In this document: positions 2,326 to 45,740 of the stretch, one piece after another
Numbering within the stretch: the stretch's first letter is position 1
How the letters are laid out: each line of letters starts with the position of its first letter
Source: Chloroflexota bacterium
GTDB lineage: Bacteria > Chloroflexota > Dehalococcoidia > Lucifugimonadales > UBA3495
NCBI GenBank assembly: GCA_028873965.1
Contig: JAPPMU010000051.1
Span: forward strand, 1 to 64,000
Reading direction: 5' to 3'
Length of the DNA: 64,000 nucleotides
Made by a program: the position numbers and the translations under genes
The notes under the pieces: model-generated
Database searches by the model: none
What the model saw: only the letters and a program-made list of their open reading frames with translations
Told to the model about the DNA's origin: nothing

Positions 2326-2496
2326 TCAATCCGAGAATATCCGCACTAACCAGAATGTCATGCCGAAACCCAGCAAGGCGCCCAAACTCGACGCCAACAG
2401 AGCCCGGTCGATCCCATCTTCCCAAACCGCGCCGAAAGTCGCGCCAAAAACGGCTAACCCCACAAAGATGGCGGCGATCAATATCAAGGGTTTTAT
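2326..2496 (-). CDS. Tiny membrane ORF with non-standard start
   Basis: A 56-codon frame encodes a hydrophobic two-helix peptide beginning IKPLILIAAIFVGLAV and ending FWLVRIFSD. It has a strong AGGAGG site (2503-2508), but the codon at the correct distance is ATA rather than ATG; a TTG lies three codons further in. The stop TGA is 3 nt before the next ATG, as expected in an operon. It is either a real gene using ATA or TTG, or one that has lost its start by point mutation. Confidence 0.4.
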   Translation of the reverse strand: MKPLILIAAIFVGLAVFGATFGAVWEDGIDRALLASSLGALLGFGMTFWLVRIFSD

Positions 2497-2534
2497 GACT
2501 GGCCTCCTGTGTGGGTTGCGAACAACCTCCGGGG

Positions 2535-4637
2535 CTAAACCAGTCCTTCCGCGCGTACCTCCGCCAGCGTGGCCTCAAAAGCCGCGAGGGTGGAGTCGAT
2601 GTCCGCCTCGGAGTGCGTCGCGGACACCAGGAATGCGTCCCGGCCCATGATGTCGATGCCGTGGTTCTGGAGGCCACGCTTGATGCCGGTCACCGCCGGC
2701 GTGGCGGCGGCGCGCTTGATTTGACGGTCAACTTCCGGCCCGAATTCGTTGTCGAAGTCGCCCTCGGCCAGCGTGAAGTGGATCATGGACGCGATGCCGT
2801 AGGCATGTCCGCCGACCTCCATGCGCGTGAACACCTCGTTCAGCCCTGCCTTCAGCCGGGCCGCCATGGCGTCGGCGTGCTCGTTCAAAGGCTCGGCGGC
2901 GATCAGTTCCAGGCAGGTCGCTCCCGCCACCGCGGACAGCGGGTTGCCGTTGAACGTCCCGGGGTGGTACACGCGCTCGGTGTTGTCCCATTCGGGGTCG
3001 CCGCGCTGGGCGATCATGTCCACGATGTCGGCTTTGCCGCCCACGGCTCCGCCGGGCAGGGCGCCGGCCACGATTTTGGCCATGGTTGTCAGATCGGGCG
3101 TGATCCCGTAGCGAACCTGTGCTCCGCCGGGTGACGCCCTGAAGCCGGTCACCACTTCGTCGAAAATCAATACCACGCCGTGTTGGTCGCATAGCTGGCG
3201 CAAGCCCGCCAGGTATCGCGGCACGTTGAAAGGCAGCTGCCCGTAGTGAGCGCCCGTGGGTTCCAGGATGATCGCGGCGATGTCGGTGTCCCGCTCCATG
3301 GCCTGTTGCACCGCGTCCAGGTTGCCCGCCGGCACGATGATCATGCTGCCCCACGATTCCGCCGGGATTCCCGGCGCCGGGCGGTCGGAACCGGCCATGG
3401 CGTAGTCGTGCCAGCCGTGGAAGTGGTCCTGCAGCTTGATGACCTTGTTGCGCCCGGTGTAAGCGCGGGCCAGGCGCATGGCCATCAGCGTGGCTTCCGT
3501 GCCGCTGCTGTGGAACCGCACCCGTTCCACCGCCGGCATCAGGTTCATGATTGCCCGGGCCCACCGCAGTTCCTCATCGGTGCACGCGCCCAGGTGGGTG
3601 CCCCGCCGGATCTGTTCCGAAACGGCGTCCGCCACGGCAGGATGCGAGTGCCCCAGCAGCAGCGCGCCGTGACCCGATACGTAGTCGATGTACTCGTTGC
3701 CGTCCACGTCCCATTTTCGGGGCCCCTGCCCGTGGGTGATGTACAGCGGGAACGGTTCGGCGTAGCGGTTGTCGTGGGTGACTCCTCCGGGGAAAATGCC
3801 CACGGCGTCACGATAGCGCTCGGCGGAGCCGGCGTGATTGGCGATGTACTGTTCCAGGATGGTGGGCATTTTCTGACTCCCATTCGTGGGTGTGTGGGAC
3901 GTTGGGAACAAGCTGCGTGGGATGGTCGTGGTTGCGGCGGCCAGGGAATTCTCCGCCGCCATCAACAGACGGGCGACGATTTCGCATAGCTTTCCCTCGC
4001 TGGCCGTTACCGCCTCGCCGCGCCAATAAGCTTCGATAATGTCACGCTCTTCATCATCAAGATGCTGCATCGCTTCCGTAGTGTCCGCGGGCAACTCCGC
4101 GATGAGTTCAGCCAAAGACAAGGGGCGTCGTTGCGGCGGGATCCGTGGATTTTCCTCTGGTGGCAGGCCAAGGGTATTCCGAGCGGCTTCCTTTAGCATG
4201 GTCACTATCCGCACGTACTCGTCGTCGCTAACCGGAGACCATTCGCCTCGATTAAGCGACTCAATGATTTCGCGCTCATCATCGTCAATATAAGGGTAAT
4301 CAATGTGAATCATAACTCCCCTTCGCAATCCGTAATCTCGCATTCGCCCGCCGTCCGGGTAGGCTGTCACAAGCCGAACCGTGTCATCGTCAATTTGATA
4401 AAAAGGAACAGCATAGAGATATTCTCTCACCATAACCAGAAGCAAGTGCTGTCCAGGATGCCGCTCCGGATTGTGATCACGAATGGTAGCAACCACATTG
4501 TCTCGGTTAACCTCAATAGCGATATCCTCAAAAGCTATCATCCGCTGCCGCCGTATCAGGTAATTCTTATCATCCGACCAAGTGAAAATCATCGGTTGAC
4601 CATCGTCAGGGGAACTATAGATTGCCAGCATCGACAC
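2535..4637 (-). CDS. Class III aminotransferase (GSA aminomutase-like) with in-frame TA-like N-terminal extension
   Basis: The open frame is 700 aa. Residues 257-700 form a complete PLP-dependent class III aminotransferase of the glutamate-1-semialdehyde aminomutase type (FPGGVTHDNRY near the start, GHSHP, SSGTEA, FDEVVTGFR, TMAKIVAGALPGGAVGG around the PLP lysine, and HPGTFNGNP). An internal ATG at 3869 with a GGGAG site 7-8 nt upstream would give a normal 444-aa enzyme, and I think that is the main start. The upstream 256 codons resemble a BrnT-like toxin plus antitoxin segments and have no stop before the enzyme. The first codon at 4637 is GTG; an ATG at 4592 is the more likely toxin start. 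True tetrapyrrole role versus another amino-acid substrate is not decided by sequence. Confidence 0.75.
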   Translation of the reverse strand: MSMLAIYSSPDDGQPMIFTWSDDKNYLIRRQRMIAFEDIAIEVNRDNVVATIRDHNPERHPGQHLLLVMVREYLYAVPFYQIDDDTVRLVTAYPDGGRMRDYGLRRGVMIHIDYPYIDDDEREIIESLNRGEWSPVSDDEYVRIVTMLKEAARNTLGLPPEENPRIPPQRRPLSLAELIAELPADTTEAMQHLDDEERDIIEAYWRGEAVTASEGKLCEIVARLLMAAENSLAAATTTIPRSLFPTSHTPTNGSQKMPTILEQYIANHAGSAERYRDAVGIFPGGVTHDNRYAEPFPLYITHGQGPRKWDVDGNEYIDYVSGHGALLLGHSHPAVADAVSEQIRRGTHLGACTDEELRWARAIMNLMPAVERVRFHSSGTEATLMAMRLARAYTGRNKVIKLQDHFHGWHDYAMAGSDRPAPGIPAESWGSMIIVPAGNLDAVQQAMERDTDIAAIILEPTGAHYGQLPFNVPRYLAGLRQLCDQHGVVLIFDEVVTGFRASPGGAQVRYGITPDLTTMAKIVAGALPGGAVGGKADIVDMIAQRGDPEWDNTERVYHPGTFNGNPLSAVAGATCLELIAAEPLNEHADAMAARLKAGLNEVFTRMEVGGHAYGIASMIHFTLAEGDFDNEFGPEVDRQIKRAAATPAVTGIKRGLQNHGIDIMGRDAFLVSATHSEADIDSTLAAFEATLAEVRAEGLV
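3870..4637 (-). other. BrnT-like toxin and repeated antitoxin segment fused upstream of aminotransferase
   Basis: Residues 16-107 of the fused frame (starting MIFTWSDDKNYL, with HPERHPGQ-like and YLYAVPF motifs) resemble BrnT-type toxins that sit beside short antitoxins. Residues 115-156 (DDDEREIIESLNRGEW to AARNTL) resemble the N-terminal half of such antitoxins, and residues 193-231 (DDEERDIIEAYWRGE to AAENSL) look like a second copy. The usual DNA-binding tail of the antitoxin is missing, and so are the stop codons that normally separate toxin, antitoxin and next gene. Resemblance is from memory of the family; no search was run. Confidence 0.5.
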
Positions 4638-4643
4638 GAGCCG

Positions 4644-4674
4644 ATTGTAGCATAGCAGGGCGGCCGGCTATGCT
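4644..4674 (-). promoter_or_regulatory. Putative promoter with overlapping inverted repeat
   Basis: On the minus strand a TACAAT -10 box (4649-4644) lies just before the toxin-like start. Directly upstream is a perfect 8-bp inverted repeat, AGCATAGC...GCTATGCT (4649-4656 and 4667-4674, 10-nt spacer). This is an operator position, as in self-regulated toxin-antitoxin operons. No good -35 is seen. Confidence 0.4.
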
Positions 4675-6026
4675 CCGGACACGGCCGACTGCCCTTGCGT
4701 CAACTCCGGCGGCCGTTTGATGAACAGGAAGCACGCGCCGGCGGCGAAGGCGCATATCGCCCCCGGGATTATCGCGTAGTCGTAGTGCCCGAAGCGGTCG
4801 CCGACCCAGCCGGCATATACCGGGGACGCCACCAGAGCCCAGGCGTAGGCGAAGGTGATGTAGCCCCGCAGGGTGGCAAACCTGGTGCGGCCATAGTACT
4901 CGCCCAACGCGGCCCACACGATTACGCCGGCTCCGTCCATCATGCCCTCGCACACGATGAACGCCACAACCAACGTGATGCCGACCGCCGTCTGCCAGTC
5001 GCCAAGCCACAGGCACAGATATCCGATCCCTTCCACCGTGAGACTCAGGAACATGATGGTTTTCTTGGATACCCGGTCCCCCATATACCCCATCGCCAGC
5101 CGGGATACGAAGTTGATCGCCGACATCGCTCCGATCAGGTTAGCGGCCATCTGGGTGCTCATGCCCTTGTCATCAACCAGGATGGGGAACAGGCTGATCA
5201 GGATACCCAGCGTCGCCATCTGCCGCAGACCGGCGCCCACCAGCAAGAGCCAGTACGCCTGGGTTCGCAGCGCTTCCCCCACCGTGTAGTCCCGAGTTTC
5301 GCGCCGGGCCGCGGCCGAACCGGGACGGGCCGGAGGCGGCCGCGTGGCTCCGTCGGGCAGCAGTCCCATGTCTTCCGGGCGGTTCCTGAACCAGTAACAC
5401 AGCGGCAGCAGGATGACCGCGTAAAACGCCCCCGAAGCGATGAGGCCCCAGCGCAGGCCGGCCCGGTCGATGAGGAGGTTCATCGTGGGGATCAGGGCCA
5501 GGCCGCCCAGGGATGCCACTGCGGCCAGGACAGATATTGCCAGCGCTCGCCGCCGGTGGAACCATTGGTTCAGGCCGGCGAAACAGGCGTGTTGAAACCC
5601 CATGCTGTTGCCCAATGACACCAGCCCCAGGTAGATGATGGCAAACCCCCAGAACCCTGGCAGCCAGAACGCCATAATGAAGTAACCGACGACGGTGATA
5701 ATCAGCGACGGCACCAGAACCTTGCGGTTGCCGAACTTGTCGATCAGCCATCCCGCCAGCGGCCCCTCCAACCCGCCTTCGGCGCGCGCTATGGAAAAAA
5801 CTAGGTTCGTCTGCGCCTGGGTAATCCCCAACTGCTCGCGAATGGGCAGCACCAGCACGCCAAACCCGCGGAAGAAGATACCGCTGGCGAAGAAGCTCAT
5901 CACCGAGGTGACGGCGACCATCCACCAACCGTAGTAAATGCGTCCTCCGGAAGACGCGCCTCCGGGGGGCGCCGGTCCTCCAATACGTTCCTCTGTCCTT
6001 GCCACTGGGTCGACCGTCGCTTGCAT
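4668..6026 (-). CDS. MFS transporter, oxalate/formate or monocarboxylate-like
   Basis: A 452-aa major facilitator superfamily permease with about 12 hydrophobic helices. It begins with the YYGWWMV motif typical of the OFA/MCT-like branch and has the signature GWLIDKFGNRKVL between helices 2 and 3. I chose the ATG at 6026 (GGTGA upstream); in-frame codons further up encode an arginine-rich stretch unlike a membrane protein. It probably moves an organic anion across the inner membrane. It is followed by the fused toxin/aminotransferase frame, which has its own promoter. Confidence 0.8.
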   Translation of the reverse strand: MQATVDPVARTEERIGGPAPPGGASSGGRIYYGWWMVAVTSVMSFFASGIFFRGFGVLVLPIREQLGITQAQTNLVFSIARAEGGLEGPLAGWLIDKFGNRKVLVPSLIITVVGYFIMAFWLPGFWGFAIIYLGLVSLGNSMGFQHACFAGLNQWFHRRRALAISVLAAVASLGGLALIPTMNLLIDRAGLRWGLIASGAFYAVILLPLCYWFRNRPEDMGLLPDGATRPPPARPGSAAARRETRDYTVGEALRTQAYWLLLVGAGLRQMATLGILISLFPILVDDKGMSTQMAANLIGAMSAINFVSRLAMGYMGDRVSKKTIMFLSLTVEGIGYLCLWLGDWQTAVGITLVVAFIVCEGMMDGAGVIVWAALGEYYGRTRFATLRGYITFAYAWALVASPVYAGWVGDRFGHYDYAIIPGAICAFAAGACFLFIKRPPELTQGQSAVSGA

Positions 6027-36235: not shown

Positions 36236-37360
36236 TCAGGCCGCCTCCCGTATCAGGTCCGAGAAGGCGTCGGCCGCTCCGCGCTGCCAGCCCGGGAGAC
36301 AATGCGCGTAGATGGACATGGTGATGGCGGGGTTGGAATGCCCCAATCTCTCTGCGACCACGGACGGGTTGACGCCCGATTGCAGCAGCATCGAAGCGTG
36401 GAAGTGACAGAGACTATGCAGGGTCAATTTCGGACAGCCAGCACGTTCTGCCCACCTCGATACCACGCGGGCAATGACCGTCGGGCGGCACCAATCGGTC
36501 CAGTCTTGCTTTGGGAACACCATTTCCGGCGGCTCAATTCCCAGGGCCTTCGCTGATCGGCATTGTGCGTTGCGATGCCTCCGCAACAGTGCGACCGTGT
36601 CAAGGTCGAGATCAACGTCGCGTAGACCCGCCCTGGTCTTCGGAGGTTCCAGTTTGACGCCGTGCGCGGTCACCACCAGGGACTGGACGACCGATAAGTA
36701 TCCGGCATTGAGCTTCACGTTCTTCCAGGTCAACCCAGCCAGTTCACCGCGCCGGAGTCCGGTGTAGGCGGCTAGATGTATGACCGCCGACAGGTAGTGC
36801 TGGATTGCTGCGCCTCGGACATCAGGGCTCGAACCTGTGAGACTTTTGGGACAAACGCCTCTTTCCTCGGACACTTCGGCGGCTTGACCGGCGCGGCCGG
36901 GTTCCGCCCGATGAGTTCCATCATGAAGGCGTGTTCCAGGGCGGCGTCCAGGACGTTGTGAACTTGTTCTACGCCTATGGGGTCCATCCCCTTCTTGGTT
37001 CGTCCCTTTTCGTTGAGTTTCTCCTTGGTCAATTCCAGTTCCAGATCGCGATCTGGATCGGCCTCAGTTTTTTCAGCGGGATATTCCCGATTGCGGGTTT
37101 GAGGTGCAGGCGGATGATGACTTCGTAGCGTGTGATGGATTTTTCGCGGAGGCCGTCGGCTTGTTTTTCCTCCAGCCAGCGATCCAGCCATTCGCCGATC
37201 TTGTAGCGGGTTTTCGCGGGGGATGTCTTTGTCTACCTCGGTCAGGATTTCGCGGAGCCTGCGGTCGGCGTCGCACCTCACGCAGCGGGTGTCGTCCACG
37301 TACCAGAGACCGGGCGCGTTGCGGACATTGGCTTGGTCGGCTCGCGGCATTGATGAGACC
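36236..37360 (-). pseudogene. Tyrosine recombinase/integrase, frameshifted
   Basis: Three reading frames must be joined to rebuild one integrase of about 370 aa. The start (WYVDDTRCVRCDADRRLREIL) is followed after a shift near 37225 by a core-binding domain (KTRYKIGEWLDRWLEEKQ ... ITRYEVIIRLHLKP). Further shifts occur near 37046 and 36810 before the catalytic part (HLAAYTGLRRGELAGLTW with Arg, final SIYAHCLPG with Tyr). The box normally reading HxLRH is HSLCHFH, so a catalytic Arg is Cys. The protein cannot be active as it stands. Confidence 0.8.
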
Positions 37361-40178: not shown

Positions 40179-40494
40179 TCCTCCGGTAGCCCTGCAAGAT
40201 ATGTGGTCCCATTCCCTGCCCCAACTATTATTCCAGCGTCGGACGGAACCCCCTGCCCTGCCGTCAGCTTGCCAGACCACCTGACAGGGAACGCCTCCCG
40301 ATTTTCGGTAGCATATTACGTGCGGCAACTACTTTCTCAAAGTAACCTTTTTATTGAGGCAATGCGCGAGCGAATGACAATTATTGACACCAGCCATGAT
40401 GGCAATTTAGACTGACGTCGGGACGAAATATCAACGGATTTCGTCGTAATATCATGGCAAAATCTCCGGTATCTATTCCAATAAGGAGGATCCA
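40179..40494 (+). other. Intergenic region with a putative promoter
   Basis: The 316-bp gap holds a likely promoter for the next gene: TTGACA at 40384-40389 with TTTAGA at 40406-40411 (16-nt spacer). A strong AAGGAGGAT ribosome-binding site directly precedes 40495. Nothing else is recognised. Confidence 0.45.
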
Positions 40495-42516
40495 ATGGCG
40501 CATTACGACATTATCGTCAGAAAGGGCACGATAGTTGATGGAACGCGGACGCCACGGTACGTCAGCGACATAGCCATCAAAGACGGCAGGATCGCCAAGA
40601 TTGGCGGGTTGAACGGCGGCACCGCTGACCGAGTGATCGACGCAGAAGGGTTGATCGTAGCGCCGGGGTTCGTGGACCTGCACACGCACTACGACGCCCA
40701 GATCTTCTGGGACCCCTACTGCACTCTGTCGGGCTGGCACGGCGTCACGTCCGTGGCCCTGGGCAACTGCGGGTTCGGCTTTGCGCCGTCGCGGGTTGAG
40801 GACCAGGACCGGGCGATGCTCAGCATGACCCGCAACGAGGCCATTCCCTACGACGCCATGAAGGAAGGGATGCCCTGGAACTGGGTGACGTTCCCGGACT
40901 TCATGGAAAGCCTCAGCAACACTCCCAAGGGAGTGAACTGCCTGACCTACGTCCCGCTGACGCCGCTGTACGCCTGGGTCATGGGCTGGGACGAGGCGAA
41001 GACGCGCCGTCCCACTGAGGACGAGCTGCAGGAAATGGTACGGCTCGTCCACGAGGCCATGGACGCCGGCGCATGTGGCTGGTCAGCCCAGGTGCTGGGT
41101 GTGAACTCGGTGCAGCGTGACTACGATGGCACCCCGATGATCACCGATATGCTGTCCGAGCACGAGGTGCTGACCTTCGCCAAGGTGCTGGCCGACCGGG
41201 ACGAGGGTTTCATCGAATTGGCCTACCAGGAGACCGGCGAAGAAGGACGGCCTTTGGGTGAAGGGGCTCGCCTGTTCTTTGAAAAGGTAGCCGAGGTGTC
41301 GAACCGCCCGGTGCTTTACCAGACGGTATCTCCCAATTCCGTACACCCTGAACAGCACCGCGAGCGCATCCGCTGGCTGGAGAGCTGCGCGGAGCGTGGC
41401 CTGCGGGTATACGGACAGGGCAATACCCGTCGTGGTGGCTTTGAACTCACCTTCGAAGACTGGAACCTGTTCGACGACACTCCCATGTGGCGCGAGGTCA
41501 CCCTGGGCGACAAGGCCACCAGGAAAGCCAAGATGTCCGACCCGGAGATGCGCCGGAAGCTGAAGGAGGAATGGGACTCGGGACGGCGTCCCACCCAGGT
41601 CACCCCCGGCTCCGTGGGTAGCCTTCAGGTGATGACCCGGAAGGTGAAGATCGATATCGGCGCTGAAACCGACTTCACCCGCACGCCGGCCAAGGTCAAT
41701 GTCAACGGAGCTGACTACTTCCTGGTCAACACCCGCGACGGCTACAAGCTGCTGTCGGTCACCTGCCCCCACCAAGGTGGCTGCGTGGACGACGACGGGG
41801 ACAAGTTCGTCTGCGATACCCACGGCTACGAGTACGAGCACGACGGCGGACGGTGCATCACCAACGGCGACCTGCGCCTGAAGTCCTTTGTCGTCAACGT
41901 CGTGGATGGGCGCATGATTGCGCTGGCGCCCGACGAGACTGAGGCGTCCAGCCCGCAGGCCGGCCTCACCGTTCAGCAAATCGCCGACGAGCAGGGCAAG
42001 CACGTTATCGACGCGCTGCTGGACATGTGCGTGGAGGACGACCTGGCCACGGAGTTCTATGCCGACACGCAAGGTCGCGATGTGGCGCAGTACACGGCGG
42101 AAGTGCTGGACTCCAACCACGTCGTCGCTGGAGTTTCCGACGGCGGGGCGCACGTCAAGTTCCTGACCGCCGGCATCTACCCGACGGACATGTTGGCCTG
42201 GCTGGTGCGAGACGAACAGGTCATCACGCTGGAGGATGCCCACTTCAAGCTGTCGTACCTGCCGGCGCACTTCGGCGGGTTCCAGGACCGGGGCGCGCTG
42301 CGCGAAGGCGCGCCGGCGGACATGGTCATCTATGACCTGGAGAGGCTGGAAGTGCTACCGTCCGAGGTGGCCGAGGACCTGCCCGGCGGCGAGTGGCGCC
42401 GCATCCAGAAGGCCAAGGGCTACCGCTGGACGCTGGTGAACGGCGAAGTCACCTTTGAGGACGGCGAACCCACCGGCGCGATGCCTGGGCTCCTGCTGCG
42501 GAACGGGCGGGGATAG
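40495..42516 (+). CDS. N-acyl-D-amino-acid deacylase-like amidohydrolase with inserted Rieske [2Fe-2S] domain
   Basis: A 673-aa protein. Residues 1-370 and 480-673 form an amidohydrolase of the D-aminoacylase group: metal ligands in DLHTHYD (61-67), later SDGGAH (548-553), and the end REGAPADMVIYDL plus GYRWTLVNGEVTFEDG. Between them, about residues 378-480, lies a Rieske-like domain with the cluster ligands Cys424 and His426 (CPHQGG) and Cys440 and His443 (CDTHGYEY). The spacing between ligand pairs (13 residues) is a little short for Rieske proteins. The frame is unbroken, with a strong AAGGAGGAT site before the ATG. I know of no described protein with this layout. Confidence 0.85.
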   Translation: MAHYDIIVRKGTIVDGTRTPRYVSDIAIKDGRIAKIGGLNGGTADRVIDAEGLIVAPGFVDLHTHYDAQIFWDPYCTLSGWHGVTSVALGNCGFGFAPSRVEDQDRAMLSMTRNEAIPYDAMKEGMPWNWVTFPDFMESLSNTPKGVNCLTYVPLTPLYAWVMGWDEAKTRRPTEDELQEMVRLVHEAMDAGACGWSAQVLGVNSVQRDYDGTPMITDMLSEHEVLTFAKVLADRDEGFIELAYQETGEEGRPLGEGARLFFEKVAEVSNRPVLYQTVSPNSVHPEQHRERIRWLESCAERGLRVYGQGNTRRGGFELTFEDWNLFDDTPMWREVTLGDKATRKAKMSDPEMRRKLKEEWDSGRRPTQVTPGSVGSLQVMTRKVKIDIGAETDFTRTPAKVNVNGADYFLVNTRDGYKLLSVTCPHQGGCVDDDGDKFVCDTHGYEYEHDGGRCITNGDLRLKSFVVNVVDGRMIALAPDETEASSPQAGLTVQQIADEQGKHVIDALLDMCVEDDLATEFYADTQGRDVAQYTAEVLDSNHVVAGVSDGGAHVKFLTAGIYPTDMLAWLVRDEQVITLEDAHFKLSYLPAHFGGFQDRGALREGAPADMVIYDLERLEVLPSEVAEDLPGGEWRRIQKAKGYRWTLVNGEVTFEDGEPTGAMPGLLLRNGRG

Positions 42517-42950: not shown

Positions 42951-43757
42951 CTAAATCCCCCGCTCCGTGAACACGGCGTCGGCCTCCTCCAAAGCCTCCT
43001 CCACGTAAGGCCACCCGCGATACCAGCCGGCCTGCGAGAACACTTCGCATATCTCCCGCTTGGACATGCCCAGTTCCAAGGCGTAGTCGATGTGCTCTCT
43101 CAGTTGCCTCATGTGTCCCCGGCACATCAGCGCCACCAGGATGCACACCGTCCTTTCCTTGGGCGTGAGGTCGCCCCGCGCCCACACCTCGCCGAAGTTG
43201 TAGGCCTCAACCAGGGCGGCAGTCTCCGGCATAAGCTCGTGGGAGAGTGAGTTCTCCAGGTCGAACTCGGCGTTGTCGCCCCAGTTTGCCCGCCGTATTT
43301 CCCGTCCCCTTTCCAGTTTTTCCTCCACCGTAGCCAACCAGTCCGCCTGGAGCGGCTCCACGTCCTCGGCCACCCACATGGGCTGTTCGTTGATCACCCT
43401 TTGCGCCTGCGCCAAGGACGACACGGTCGCCGGTATCCCCGCGTAAAAGATCAGCTGCAGGAATATACCTTTCACCTTCTGCGGCGACATCCCCAGCGAC
43501 AGGCCGACCCTGATCTGGTGCTGGAGCCCGAACTCCCAGCCGTTGCAGCACTGCGCCGCGATCGTCGCCATGCTGCGCAGCGTCACATCCAGGCCCGGCA
43601 CCTGCCACACGCCGCCCCACATCACCTCCTCCTGCAGTTTCACGTAGTCCGTGCTGACGTCGGGCAGCGCAGCGGTGAGGCGCCGCTGGGGTACGTACTG
43701 GTCGATGAACGCGTGGAGGTTGGCGGCTTTACGTGCCAGGTCAGCGGCGGTGTCCAT
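42951..43757 (-). CDS. Double carboxymuconolactone-decarboxylase-like protein
   Basis: A 268-aa protein with two CMD/AhpD-like helical units (about residues 45-130 and 175-262). Unit 1 has LRSMATIAAQCCNGWEFGLQHQIRVGL; unit 2 has PKERTVCILVALMCRGHMRQLREHIDYALELG. The peroxidase-type CxxC is not evident, so a decarboxylase, isomerase or structural role is possible. It is one of three tandem paralogues facing the other cargo genes. Confidence 0.8.
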   Translation of the reverse strand: MDTAADLARKAANLHAFIDQYVPQRRLTAALPDVSTDYVKLQEEVMWGGVWQVPGLDVTLRSMATIAAQCCNGWEFGLQHQIRVGLSLGMSPQKVKGIFLQLIFYAGIPATVSSLAQAQRVINEQPMWVAEDVEPLQADWLATVEEKLERGREIRRANWGDNAEFDLENSLSHELMPETAALVEAYNFGEVWARGDLTPKERTVCILVALMCRGHMRQLREHIDYALELGMSKREICEVFSQAGWYRGWPYVEEALEEADAVFTERGI

Positions 43758-43808
43758 TTCAACTTCTCACCATGTTGCGATTTGCAGGGACGATCCGAGA
43801 GGCTGAGG

Positions 43809-44600
43809 TCAGGCTCTCCGGAACTCGAAAACCTCGTTGGCCTGCGCCAGCGCATCCTCAACGTACGGCCAGCCCCGGTACCAGCCGGCCTGGGCAAACA
43901 CCTCGCAGATCTGCCTTTCGTCCAGTCCGGCGTCCAGCGCATAGCCAACATGTCGCTTCAGCTGCTTCATGTGCCCGCGGCACATCAGCGCCGCCAGGAC
44001 GCAAACCATTCGTTCTTGCGGGTTCAGGTCCGCTCGACGCCAGACCTCCCCAAAGTGGTAAGCGTCCACCAGCTCCGCCGACTCCGGTATGAACCGCCGC
44101 GCGAGCGCATTCTCAACCGCCGCGTCGGCGCTTTCACCCCAATGCTTTACCCGCACGGCCTTGCCCTGCGCCAGCATCTCGTCGATGGAGTCCAGCCACT
44201 CGGTGTCCAGCGGTACGTCGCCGTCCTTCCATTCCTCCCGCTCGTTGATGACCTCCTGCGCGATCCGTAACCCGAATACGGTGGCCGGCACCCCCGCATA
44301 AAACATCAGCTCTATGAATATCCCCTTGATCTGCTGCGCTGTGATCCCCACGGTTAGTCCCGTTCGTACCTGGTGCTCCACGCCGAAATCGTATCCGTTC
44401 ACGCATTGGGCAGTGATCGTCGCGAAACTGCGTAGTTTCAAATCCAGCCCATCTGCCAGCCAGACGCCGCCCCACATCAGCTCGTGCTGCACCCTAACAA
44501 AATCGGCCAGCACCGGCGTGGGCCTTGCGTAGGGCAAGTGCTGATCGAAAAACTGCCGCAGCTTCGCCGATCGTTCCTGGATTTCCTGCACCGTCGTCAT
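43809..44600 (-). CDS. Double carboxymuconolactone-decarboxylase-like protein
   Basis: A 263-aa paralogue of the neighbouring proteins. Unit 1 reads LRSFATITAQCVNGYDFGVEHQVRTGL and unit 2 PQERMVCVLAALMCRGHMKQLKRHVGYALDAG. The ATG at 44600 has AGGAGGGG upstream; longer in-frame sequence upstream belongs to the preceding gene read in another frame. Middle gene of the triplet. Confidence 0.8.
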   Translation of the reverse strand: MTTVQEIQERSAKLRQFFDQHLPYARPTPVLADFVRVQHELMWGGVWLADGLDLKLRSFATITAQCVNGYDFGVEHQVRTGLTVGITAQQIKGIFIELMFYAGVPATVFGLRIAQEVINEREEWKDGDVPLDTEWLDSIDEMLAQGKAVRVKHWGESADAAVENALARRFIPESAELVDAYHFGEVWRRADLNPQERMVCVLAALMCRGHMKQLKRHVGYALDAGLDERQICEVFAQAGWYRGWPYVEDALAQANEVFEFRRA

Positions 44601-44632
44601 TCGAACCCCTCCTGACCCTGGGGAAGCAGCCG

Positions 44633-45415
44633 TCAGGCGCCCGTTGCCTCGAACACTTCCCGCGCCTGTTCCAGCGCGTCCTCCACATGGGGCCATCCCC
44701 GGTACCATCCCGCCTGCGCGAACACCTCGCAGATCTCCCGCTGCTCTAACCCCATGTTCAGGGCGTAGCGGATGTACCGCCTCAGTTGTTTCCAGTGCCC
44801 CCGCGCCATCAGCGCCGCCAGCACGCACACCATCCTCTCTTTCGGAGCCAGGTCGTCCCGCGCCCACACCTCGCCATAATTGTATCCGTCCACGATGTCC
44901 GATGCTTCCGGCGTCAGACGCTGCGCCAGCGACTCCTCAACCTCCCGGTTCGCCGCCTCGCCCCAGAGTTTCGTCCGGATCGCGCTGCCACGCGCCAGCT
45001 TGTCCTCCAGGGTCTCCAACCAGTCCGCCTCAATCGGCACGTCCGCCGCCTTCCATTCCTCGCGCTCGTTGATCACCGCCTGCGCCTGCAGCAATCCGTG
45101 GACGGTGGCGGGAATCCCGGCGTAGAACAGCAATTGAATGAATATCCCTTTGATCTGCCACGGCGGCATCCCCATTGTCAGCCCCACCCGGATCTGGTGC
45201 TTCAACCCGAAGTCCCAGCCGTTGACGCACTGGGCCGAAATCGTCGCGAAACTCCGCAGCTTCAGGTCCAGTCCCGGCCCTTGCCAGATCCCGCCCCACA
45301 TCAGTGGTTCCTGGATATTCCAATAGTCCGCCGAGATGGATGGAATGTCGCTGTTGACGGGCAGGTACGGCTCGAGTTCGTGAGCCCTCCGCGACATCTC
45401 GTCGGGCGTGGTCAT
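44633..45415 (-). CDS. Double carboxymuconolactone-decarboxylase-like protein
   Basis: A 260-aa paralogue. Unit 1 reads LRSFATISAQCVNGWDFGLKHQIRVGL and unit 2 PKERMVCVLAALMARGHWKQLRRYIRYALNMG. I chose the ATG at 45415, 9 nt behind AGGAG; the ATG three codons earlier touches that site. First gene of the triplet, closer to the middle copy than to the last. Confidence 0.8.
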   Translation of the reverse strand: MTTPDEMSRRAHELEPYLPVNSDIPSISADYWNIQEPLMWGGIWQGPGLDLKLRSFATISAQCVNGWDFGLKHQIRVGLTMGMPPWQIKGIFIQLLFYAGIPATVHGLLQAQAVINEREEWKAADVPIEADWLETLEDKLARGSAIRTKLWGEAANREVEESLAQRLTPEASDIVDGYNYGEVWARDDLAPKERMVCVLAALMARGHWKQLRRYIRYALNMGLEQREICEVFAQAGWYRGWPHVEDALEQAREVFEATGA

Positions 45416-45740
45416 CGTCTGCATCTCCTGGCAAAGGCGTGCACTACGCCGGCAATTCTAACCGACCGCGCAGTTCTGGGAAACGATGGCCCGACCGGAT
45501 CCAGAGTCTTGTAGGTTGGCGGAGGGAGTACGGTGGCGGAGACCGGTACGGCAGACCGGCAGGGTCTTGGTCAGAGGAGGCCGTTCGAAATCGTGGGTCG
45601 CCGCACCTTTCCCCAAAGAGCCCGAACAGTTGCCTGGTCCAGCCAAGCCCGTATCTTGCCTGAAGTTTACGTAAAATTTAGAAAAACTATAAAGACCGGG
45701 TAATCTGGCTCGCCCCCACTTTCGACGGAAAGGCCCAGCC
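45416..45740. other. Non-coding gap, possible IS end
   Basis: No gene is recognised. The AT-richer part (about 45665-45720) precedes the transposase remnant and may be the terminal region of that element. Confidence 0.35.

Follow-up and report, generated by a model that had tools for sequence, protein, structure and literature searches.

Amidohydrolase-fold enzymes that work with a Rieske protein have been described as oxygenases. AibH1H2, which is built from two barrels of the amidohydrolase superfamily, hydroxylates aminoisobutyrate; the electrons pass from NADH via the reductase AibF and the Rieske ferredoxin AibG, and the metal ligands of AibH2 are Asp25, His27, His211, Glu265, Asp337 and His340 (PMC7782822). 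The AibH1H2 cofactor was later reported to be Mn/Fe, and 90% of 555 relatives have an adjacent small Rieske protein (PMC10401708). SfbO was found through a search for Rieske genes beside amidohydrolases (PMC10811679). Hence, the statement in the first-pass annotation of our locus that a hydrolase needs no electron carrier overlooks amidohydrolase-fold oxygenases such as AibH2 and SfbO, which have a dedicated Rieske ferredoxin (PMC7782822, PMC10811679). In these amidohydrolase-related dinuclear oxygenases (AROs; AibH2, SfbO and PtmU3), the Rieske protein is a separate chain.

Here, we describe a gene in which a Rieske domain lies inside the chain of an amidohydrolase barrel. The window, the whole stretch of DNA analysed, comprises 64,000 nucleotides of a Chloroflexota bacterium, which we take to be a SAR202 member of the sponge and ocean type. 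The fused gene (40495..42516, + strand) is an open frame of 673 amino acids with an ATG start, and a Shine-Dalgarno sequence AGGAGG (40484..40489, +) lies 5 nt ahead of the ATG; the frame was thus rightly described at first pass as intact and equipped with a ribosome-binding site. On the same strand, the N-terminal part of the barrel (aa 1-358, 40495..41568; assigned by Pfam PF07969 and VIA-align to 1m7j) and the C-terminal part (aa 492-673, 41968..42513; best PF07969 stretch 492-654) flank the inserted Rieske [2Fe-2S] domain (aa 372-482, 41608..41940). The Amidohydro_3 profile PF07969 matches on both sides of the middle (8.5e-23, 82 bits against a cut-off of 29.7), and the Rieske profile PF00355 matches aa 389-457 (2.1e-6, 28.0 bits against a curated cut-off of 20.3); in a genome-wide profile scan, the Rieske domain of the fused gene scores 32.2 bits. 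No Rieske subfamily of NCBIfam exceeds its cut-off with either the insert or its stand-alone relatives. The cluster motif reads C424-x-H426-x13-C440-x2-H443 (CPHQGGCVDDDGDKFVCDTH from aa 424), with the first cluster-binding loop C424-P-H426-Q-G-G at 41764..41781 (+) and the second, C440-D-T-H443, at 41812..41823 (+). A pattern of the form C-x-H-x(10-22)-C-x2-H is present in just 17 of 20,000 shuffles of the fused protein.

Structural predictions agree with this assignment. A full-length model based on 49 sequences (mean pLDDT 85, pTM 0.80) shows an amidohydrolase fold in which residues 378-479 make up an all-beta block, and the segment singled out at first pass (41626-41934, aa 378-480) corresponds to this predicted beta-domain. 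Structure prediction had been suggested as a check at that stage, and it gives a Rieske fold for the insert: folded alone with AF2, the insert reaches a pLDDT of ~90 across its core, and Rieske proteins rank first among its PDB matches, namely the naphthalene dioxygenase ferredoxin 2qpz and the toluene 4-monooxygenase ferredoxin 1vm9 (both VIA-align Z 11.7). The domain shares the fold and the C-x-H ... C-x2-H motif with these soluble ferredoxins and differs from them in not being free-standing. For the barrel, the closest solved folds are D-aminoacylase and N-acyl-D-glutamate deacylase (1m7j, 3gip; COG3653; Z 42-43), and 1m7j aligns with the whole model at VIA-align Z 43.0 and rmsd 2.9 over 439 residues. 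By the strand order of the model, the insert follows three helices (330-361) and separates barrel strands 7 (305-309) and 8 (543-545). In D-aminoacylase, the beta7-beta8 connection forms a lid above the active site. By all tests applied, the fused protein is a Rieske domain plus an Amidohydro_3 barrel, so that Pfam, motif, predicted fold and 12 further complete fused copies (see below) uphold the original call of a Rieske domain within an amidohydrolase barrel.

The metal set of D-aminoacylase consists of H67, H69, C96, H220, H250 and D366. According to the alignment, the fused family keeps H63, H65, C92 and D549 as equivalents and has H553 as an additional invariant residue. The motif His63-Thr-His65 (40681..40689, +) and the segment S-D549-G-G-A-H553 (42136..42153, +), which holds the strand 8 aspartate and the family-specific histidine, are invariant in 49 aligned proteins; Cys92 (40768..40770, +), the equivalent of ligand Cys96 in the alignment with 1m7j/1v4y, is invariant as well, and D549 aligns with the metal ligand and catalytic residue Asp366. 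The full D-aminoacylase set is not present in the alignment, because the beta-metal histidines H220 and H250 are replaced by L242 and Q276. Plain D-aminoacylase hydrolysis is therefore unlikely. The label "D-aminoacylase-type" given at first pass thus fits the fold, in which HxH, Cys and the strand 8 Asp are retained, but not an assumed activity, given the two replaced histidines and the ~110-residue Rieske domain in the beta7-beta8 connection.

In comparison with the AROs, the fused protein likewise combines a barrel of the amidohydrolase superfamily with a Rieske [2Fe-2S] protein dedicated to it, linked as genes or domains, in a likely catabolic setting. The trait of an associated small Rieske protein takes the form of an internal domain here, and the sister ferredoxin of this domain pairs with another amidohydrolase. 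The AROs, however, belong to PF04909 (Amidohydro_2), whereas the fused protein belongs to PF07969. PF04909 gives no match to the fused protein at E <= 10, and a genome scan places it at 17 sites, none of them at the fused gene. Moreover, sequence alignment against the published ligand list shows that the ARO ligands D-x-H, H, E, D and H (AibH2) are not shared: the fused protein has H63-T-H65, L242, Q276, D549 and H553 at these positions, i.e., an HxH-C-D(-H) arrangement without the strand 5 and 6 ligands. AibH2 and PtmU3 are not among the 50 best structural matches listed by Foldseek. On the profile evidence, the fused protein falls outside the PF04909 oxygenases, though by analogy it may work in a similar manner.

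Complete fused proteins occur at 12 other loci with 77-97% identity, including the chromosome-level assemblies L010 and L020, as found in a genome contig scan. The same scan returned many relatives without the insert, which carry a short loop at the insertion site. These single-domain proteins (Reyranella, Gammaproteobacteria, Binatota and others; 52-58% identical) belong to the same barrel family and retain the same putative metal residues. Long N-terminal extensions in L059, L061, L067, L076 and L084, which resemble further fused domains, were rejected by eye as probable opposite-strand frames running through GC-rich genes. The insertion site is identical in all fused copies, and with the insert taken out, the fused barrels form one clade (support 100) amid insert-free proteins; the tree therefore points to a single fusion event, and as judged from it the fusion arose once. 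The fused form is found in 8 of 197 genomes of the same order, all of one family, and in a phylum sample of 400 genomes it is found in the source genome only.

The fused gene is under constraint. For the insert, dN/dS is 0.04-0.16 between the source copy and close relatives. It rises to 0.23-0.41 against the fused copies furthest from the source copy, for which synonymous changes approach saturation; the barrel has lower values (0.02-0.12), and at the protein level the insert changes 2-4x faster than the barrel. Inserts diverge to as little as 55-60% identity, yet their ligands do not change: C424, H426, C440 and H443 are found in each of the 13 fused copies and also in P0002, a stand-alone relative, and the first loop (C424-P-H426-Q-G-G) is invariant throughout this set. 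These rates indicate that the insert is under purifying selection and that the fused layout is kept by selection. Since the ligands stay constant despite the divergence of the insert and its dN/dS is low, a [2Fe-2S] cluster is probably bound and used. The same data bear on the reading of the Rieske domain as a sequencing or assembly chimera or a functionless, decaying insertion. Many of the copies are MAG-derived and the source assembly has an estimated contamination of 7%, but 13 intact copies with one insertion site, two of them in chromosome-level assemblies, together with invariant ligands and low dN/dS, leave this reading hardly credible. The chimera absent from relatives, a concern raised at first pass, is ruled out by the presence of the insertion in 12 relatives.

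The origin of the domain provides a link to amidohydrolases that is separate from the fusion. The inserts form one clade (98/96), whose closest relatives (100/99) are stand-alone ferredoxin-like proteins of ~122 residues. In 11 of 12 genomes checked, many of which are close kin, an insert-free amidohydrolase is encoded at a distance of 75-532 bp from the stand-alone Rieske gene. None of ten more distant Rieske genes has such an amidohydrolase nearby. The paired amidohydrolase belongs to another subfamily, ~40% identical to the fused barrel, and the pair is usually convergent, so it does not form one operon. This kind of Rieske protein thus has two links with amidohydrolases, one through gene proximity and one through fusion.

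The source genome also carries a split version of this arrangement on another contig (C34), with a stand-alone Rieske gene (L087:8746-9114) beside an insert-free amidohydrolase (L087:9396-11087). A second stand-alone pair is present in genome G583 (L129), and a second, more distant stand-alone Rieske protein is encoded at L088:8823-9419 (contig C33). In other genomes of the family, distant stand-alone Rieske genes are located near short-chain dehydrogenases, a nitroreductase and a Rieske oxygenase of the LigXa type.

Two alphaproteobacterial MAGs hold the fused gene as well, one with two copies (G590; L015:4251-6269 and L016:2417-4438) and one with a single copy (G591; L017:6001-8013). Among 150 family genomes and 385 class genomes of G591, the fused gene is present in G591 alone. 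Misbinning was considered and rejected: the tetranucleotides of three stretches fit their own bins better (0.94-0.97) than SAR202 (0.68-0.80), and for the small contig 279 the fit is less clear (own bin 0.85, SAR202 0.72). Gene transfer is preferred because the contig tetranucleotides match their own bins, and the fused gene has probably passed between phyla, reaching Alphaproteobacteria. Both MAGs lack the stand-alone ferredoxin, which suggests that the fused protein can serve alone.

With a confidence somewhat short of even, we favour the interpretation that the fused protein is a single-chain redox enzyme in which the Rieske cluster would feed electrons to the barrel metal for O2 chemistry. 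This electron feed is proposed by analogy, because of the precedent of AibH1H2/AibG and SfbO. Also in its favour are the oxygenase ferredoxins among the structural neighbours of the insert, its invariant ligands and purifying selection, the pairing of its sister ferredoxin with another amidohydrolase, the replaced beta-metal histidines of the barrel, and the fused gene of G590 and G591 that occurs without the stand-alone ferredoxin. An external reductase would reduce the Rieske cluster, which would hand the electrons to a barrel metal (Fe, or Mn/Fe) held by H63, H65 and D549, perhaps with C92 or H553; the metal would activate O2 for the oxidation of a small organic substrate. The inserted Rieske domain would then do the job thought to be done by the separate AibG and its relatives for AibH2 and SfbO. 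A narrower version, which we regard as rather unlikely, has a mononuclear Fe site of His63, His65 and Asp549 fed by the Rieske domain in the lid, so that the combination of a two-His-one-carboxylate site with a Rieske cluster would have a second, independent origin in an unrelated fold. The proposed analogy is to the Rieske non-heme iron oxygenases, which have both elements in one chain. Their catalytic domain has a different fold that is not a TIM barrel. There is no homology beyond the Rieske domain, the catalytic part of the fused protein is an amidohydrolase barrel in place of their type of domain, and the fused protein is not a Rieske non-heme iron oxygenase. Against oxygenase chemistry stand the PF07969 membership and the ligand set, both of which differ from those of the known amidohydrolase-fold oxygenases, as well as the convergent orientation of the stand-alone pairs and the close kinship of many paired genomes. 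A further objection comes from the insert-free relatives: the contig scan found no insert-like Rieske ORF in insert-free loci from Proteobacteria and other phyla, and the clusters of two annotated plasmid homologues without the insert hold no annotated Rieske gene. One of these clusters is catabolic and encodes CoA transferases, enoyl-CoA hydratases and acyl-CoA dehydrogenases; the other homologue is located near a P450 and other oxidoreductases. With the same metal residues in these insert-free relatives, the site is thus not peculiar to Rieske-coupled chemistry. Going by the alignment, ordinary D-aminoacylase chemistry should be taken for granted neither in the fused protein nor in its insert-free relatives, and the root activity of the barrel family may be hydrolytic.

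For the same reason, a barrel that is still a hydrolase remains a serious rival, with the Rieske domain as a redox switch or sensor, or as a structural lid that tunes substrate access, and with no catalytic electrons involved. The position of the insertion in the beta7-beta8 lid region, the wide occurrence of insert-free homologues with the same metal residues (one in a catabolic cluster) and the faster evolution of the insert speak for it. We consider it possible if doubtful, given that the cluster ligands are invariant, that the beta-site histidines for D-aminoacylase-type hydrolysis are missing and that the closest relatives of the insert are free ferredoxin-like proteins paired with an amidohydrolase, which better fits electron delivery. 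The Rieske domain might also carry electrons to another protein, such as a Rieske oxygenase or a flavin monooxygenase, with the barrel as a carrier or product processor. The domain resembles free oxygenase ferredoxins, seven of the genome's Rieske matches fall in reading frames as long as those of Rieske oxygenases (449-644 residues), and the source genome holds 88 matches to the luciferase-like monooxygenase family (a few of them partial) in 3.88 Mb, one of which adjoins the fused gene. An insertion within the lid is, however, awkward for a freely docking ferredoxin, and the 12 other fused loci have no conserved neighbour in common, so that such a partner appears improbable. The first-pass annotation had named the neighbouring luciferase-like monooxygenase or Gfo/Idh dehydrogenase as possible electron acceptors. 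Orthologues of these neighbours lie beside none of the 12 other fused copies. Some luciferase-like gene does occur at 6 of the 12 loci; with 88 in 3.88 Mb, about 1 in 4 such stretches would have one by chance, and its presence therefore means little. The early interpretation thus holds in its view of an intact, functional-looking Rieske domain for which we found no described example, and its proposed electron partners are not supported.

In the open-access literature, our search yielded no account of an amidohydrolase with an internal Rieske domain, and likewise none for Rieske, amidohydrolase and SAR202 combined or for a Rieske domain inserted in a TIM barrel. What appears to be new is the fused layout; separate-chain amidohydrolase-fold oxygenases with Rieske partners are already known. 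Annotation pipelines would call the fused protein an amidohydrolase, and by analogy a database "hydrolase" may be a self-contained O2-using enzyme. Should electrons from the Rieske domain reach the barrel, oxidative enzymes would exist within one branch of the D-aminoacylase-like family, and the amidohydrolase superfamily would have given rise to oxygenase chemistry on more than one occasion. The protein would then be a self-contained ferredoxin-oxygenase chain that may need a reductase only. SAR202 bacteria, presumed oxidisers of resistant oceanic organic matter (PMC6946804), would likewise gain a candidate oxidative enzyme.

The 12 Rieske and 88 luciferase-like matches of the source genome match the paralogue expansions reported for SAR202. 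In the window, the fused gene is followed by three tandem paralogues of the carboxymuconolactone decarboxylase (CMD) family with two CMD stretches each (42951-45424, - strand). L020 has a matching CMD trio on the other side of its fused gene (2398-4918), which shows that the locus has undergone rearrangement. A gene of the phage-integrase family (36236-36874, -) lies upstream of the oxidative genes. Near the start of the window, two tandem paralogues (455-1180 and 1313-2089, -) have near-identical starts (MASFWEKL...MDMYA...VPSSSAGF).
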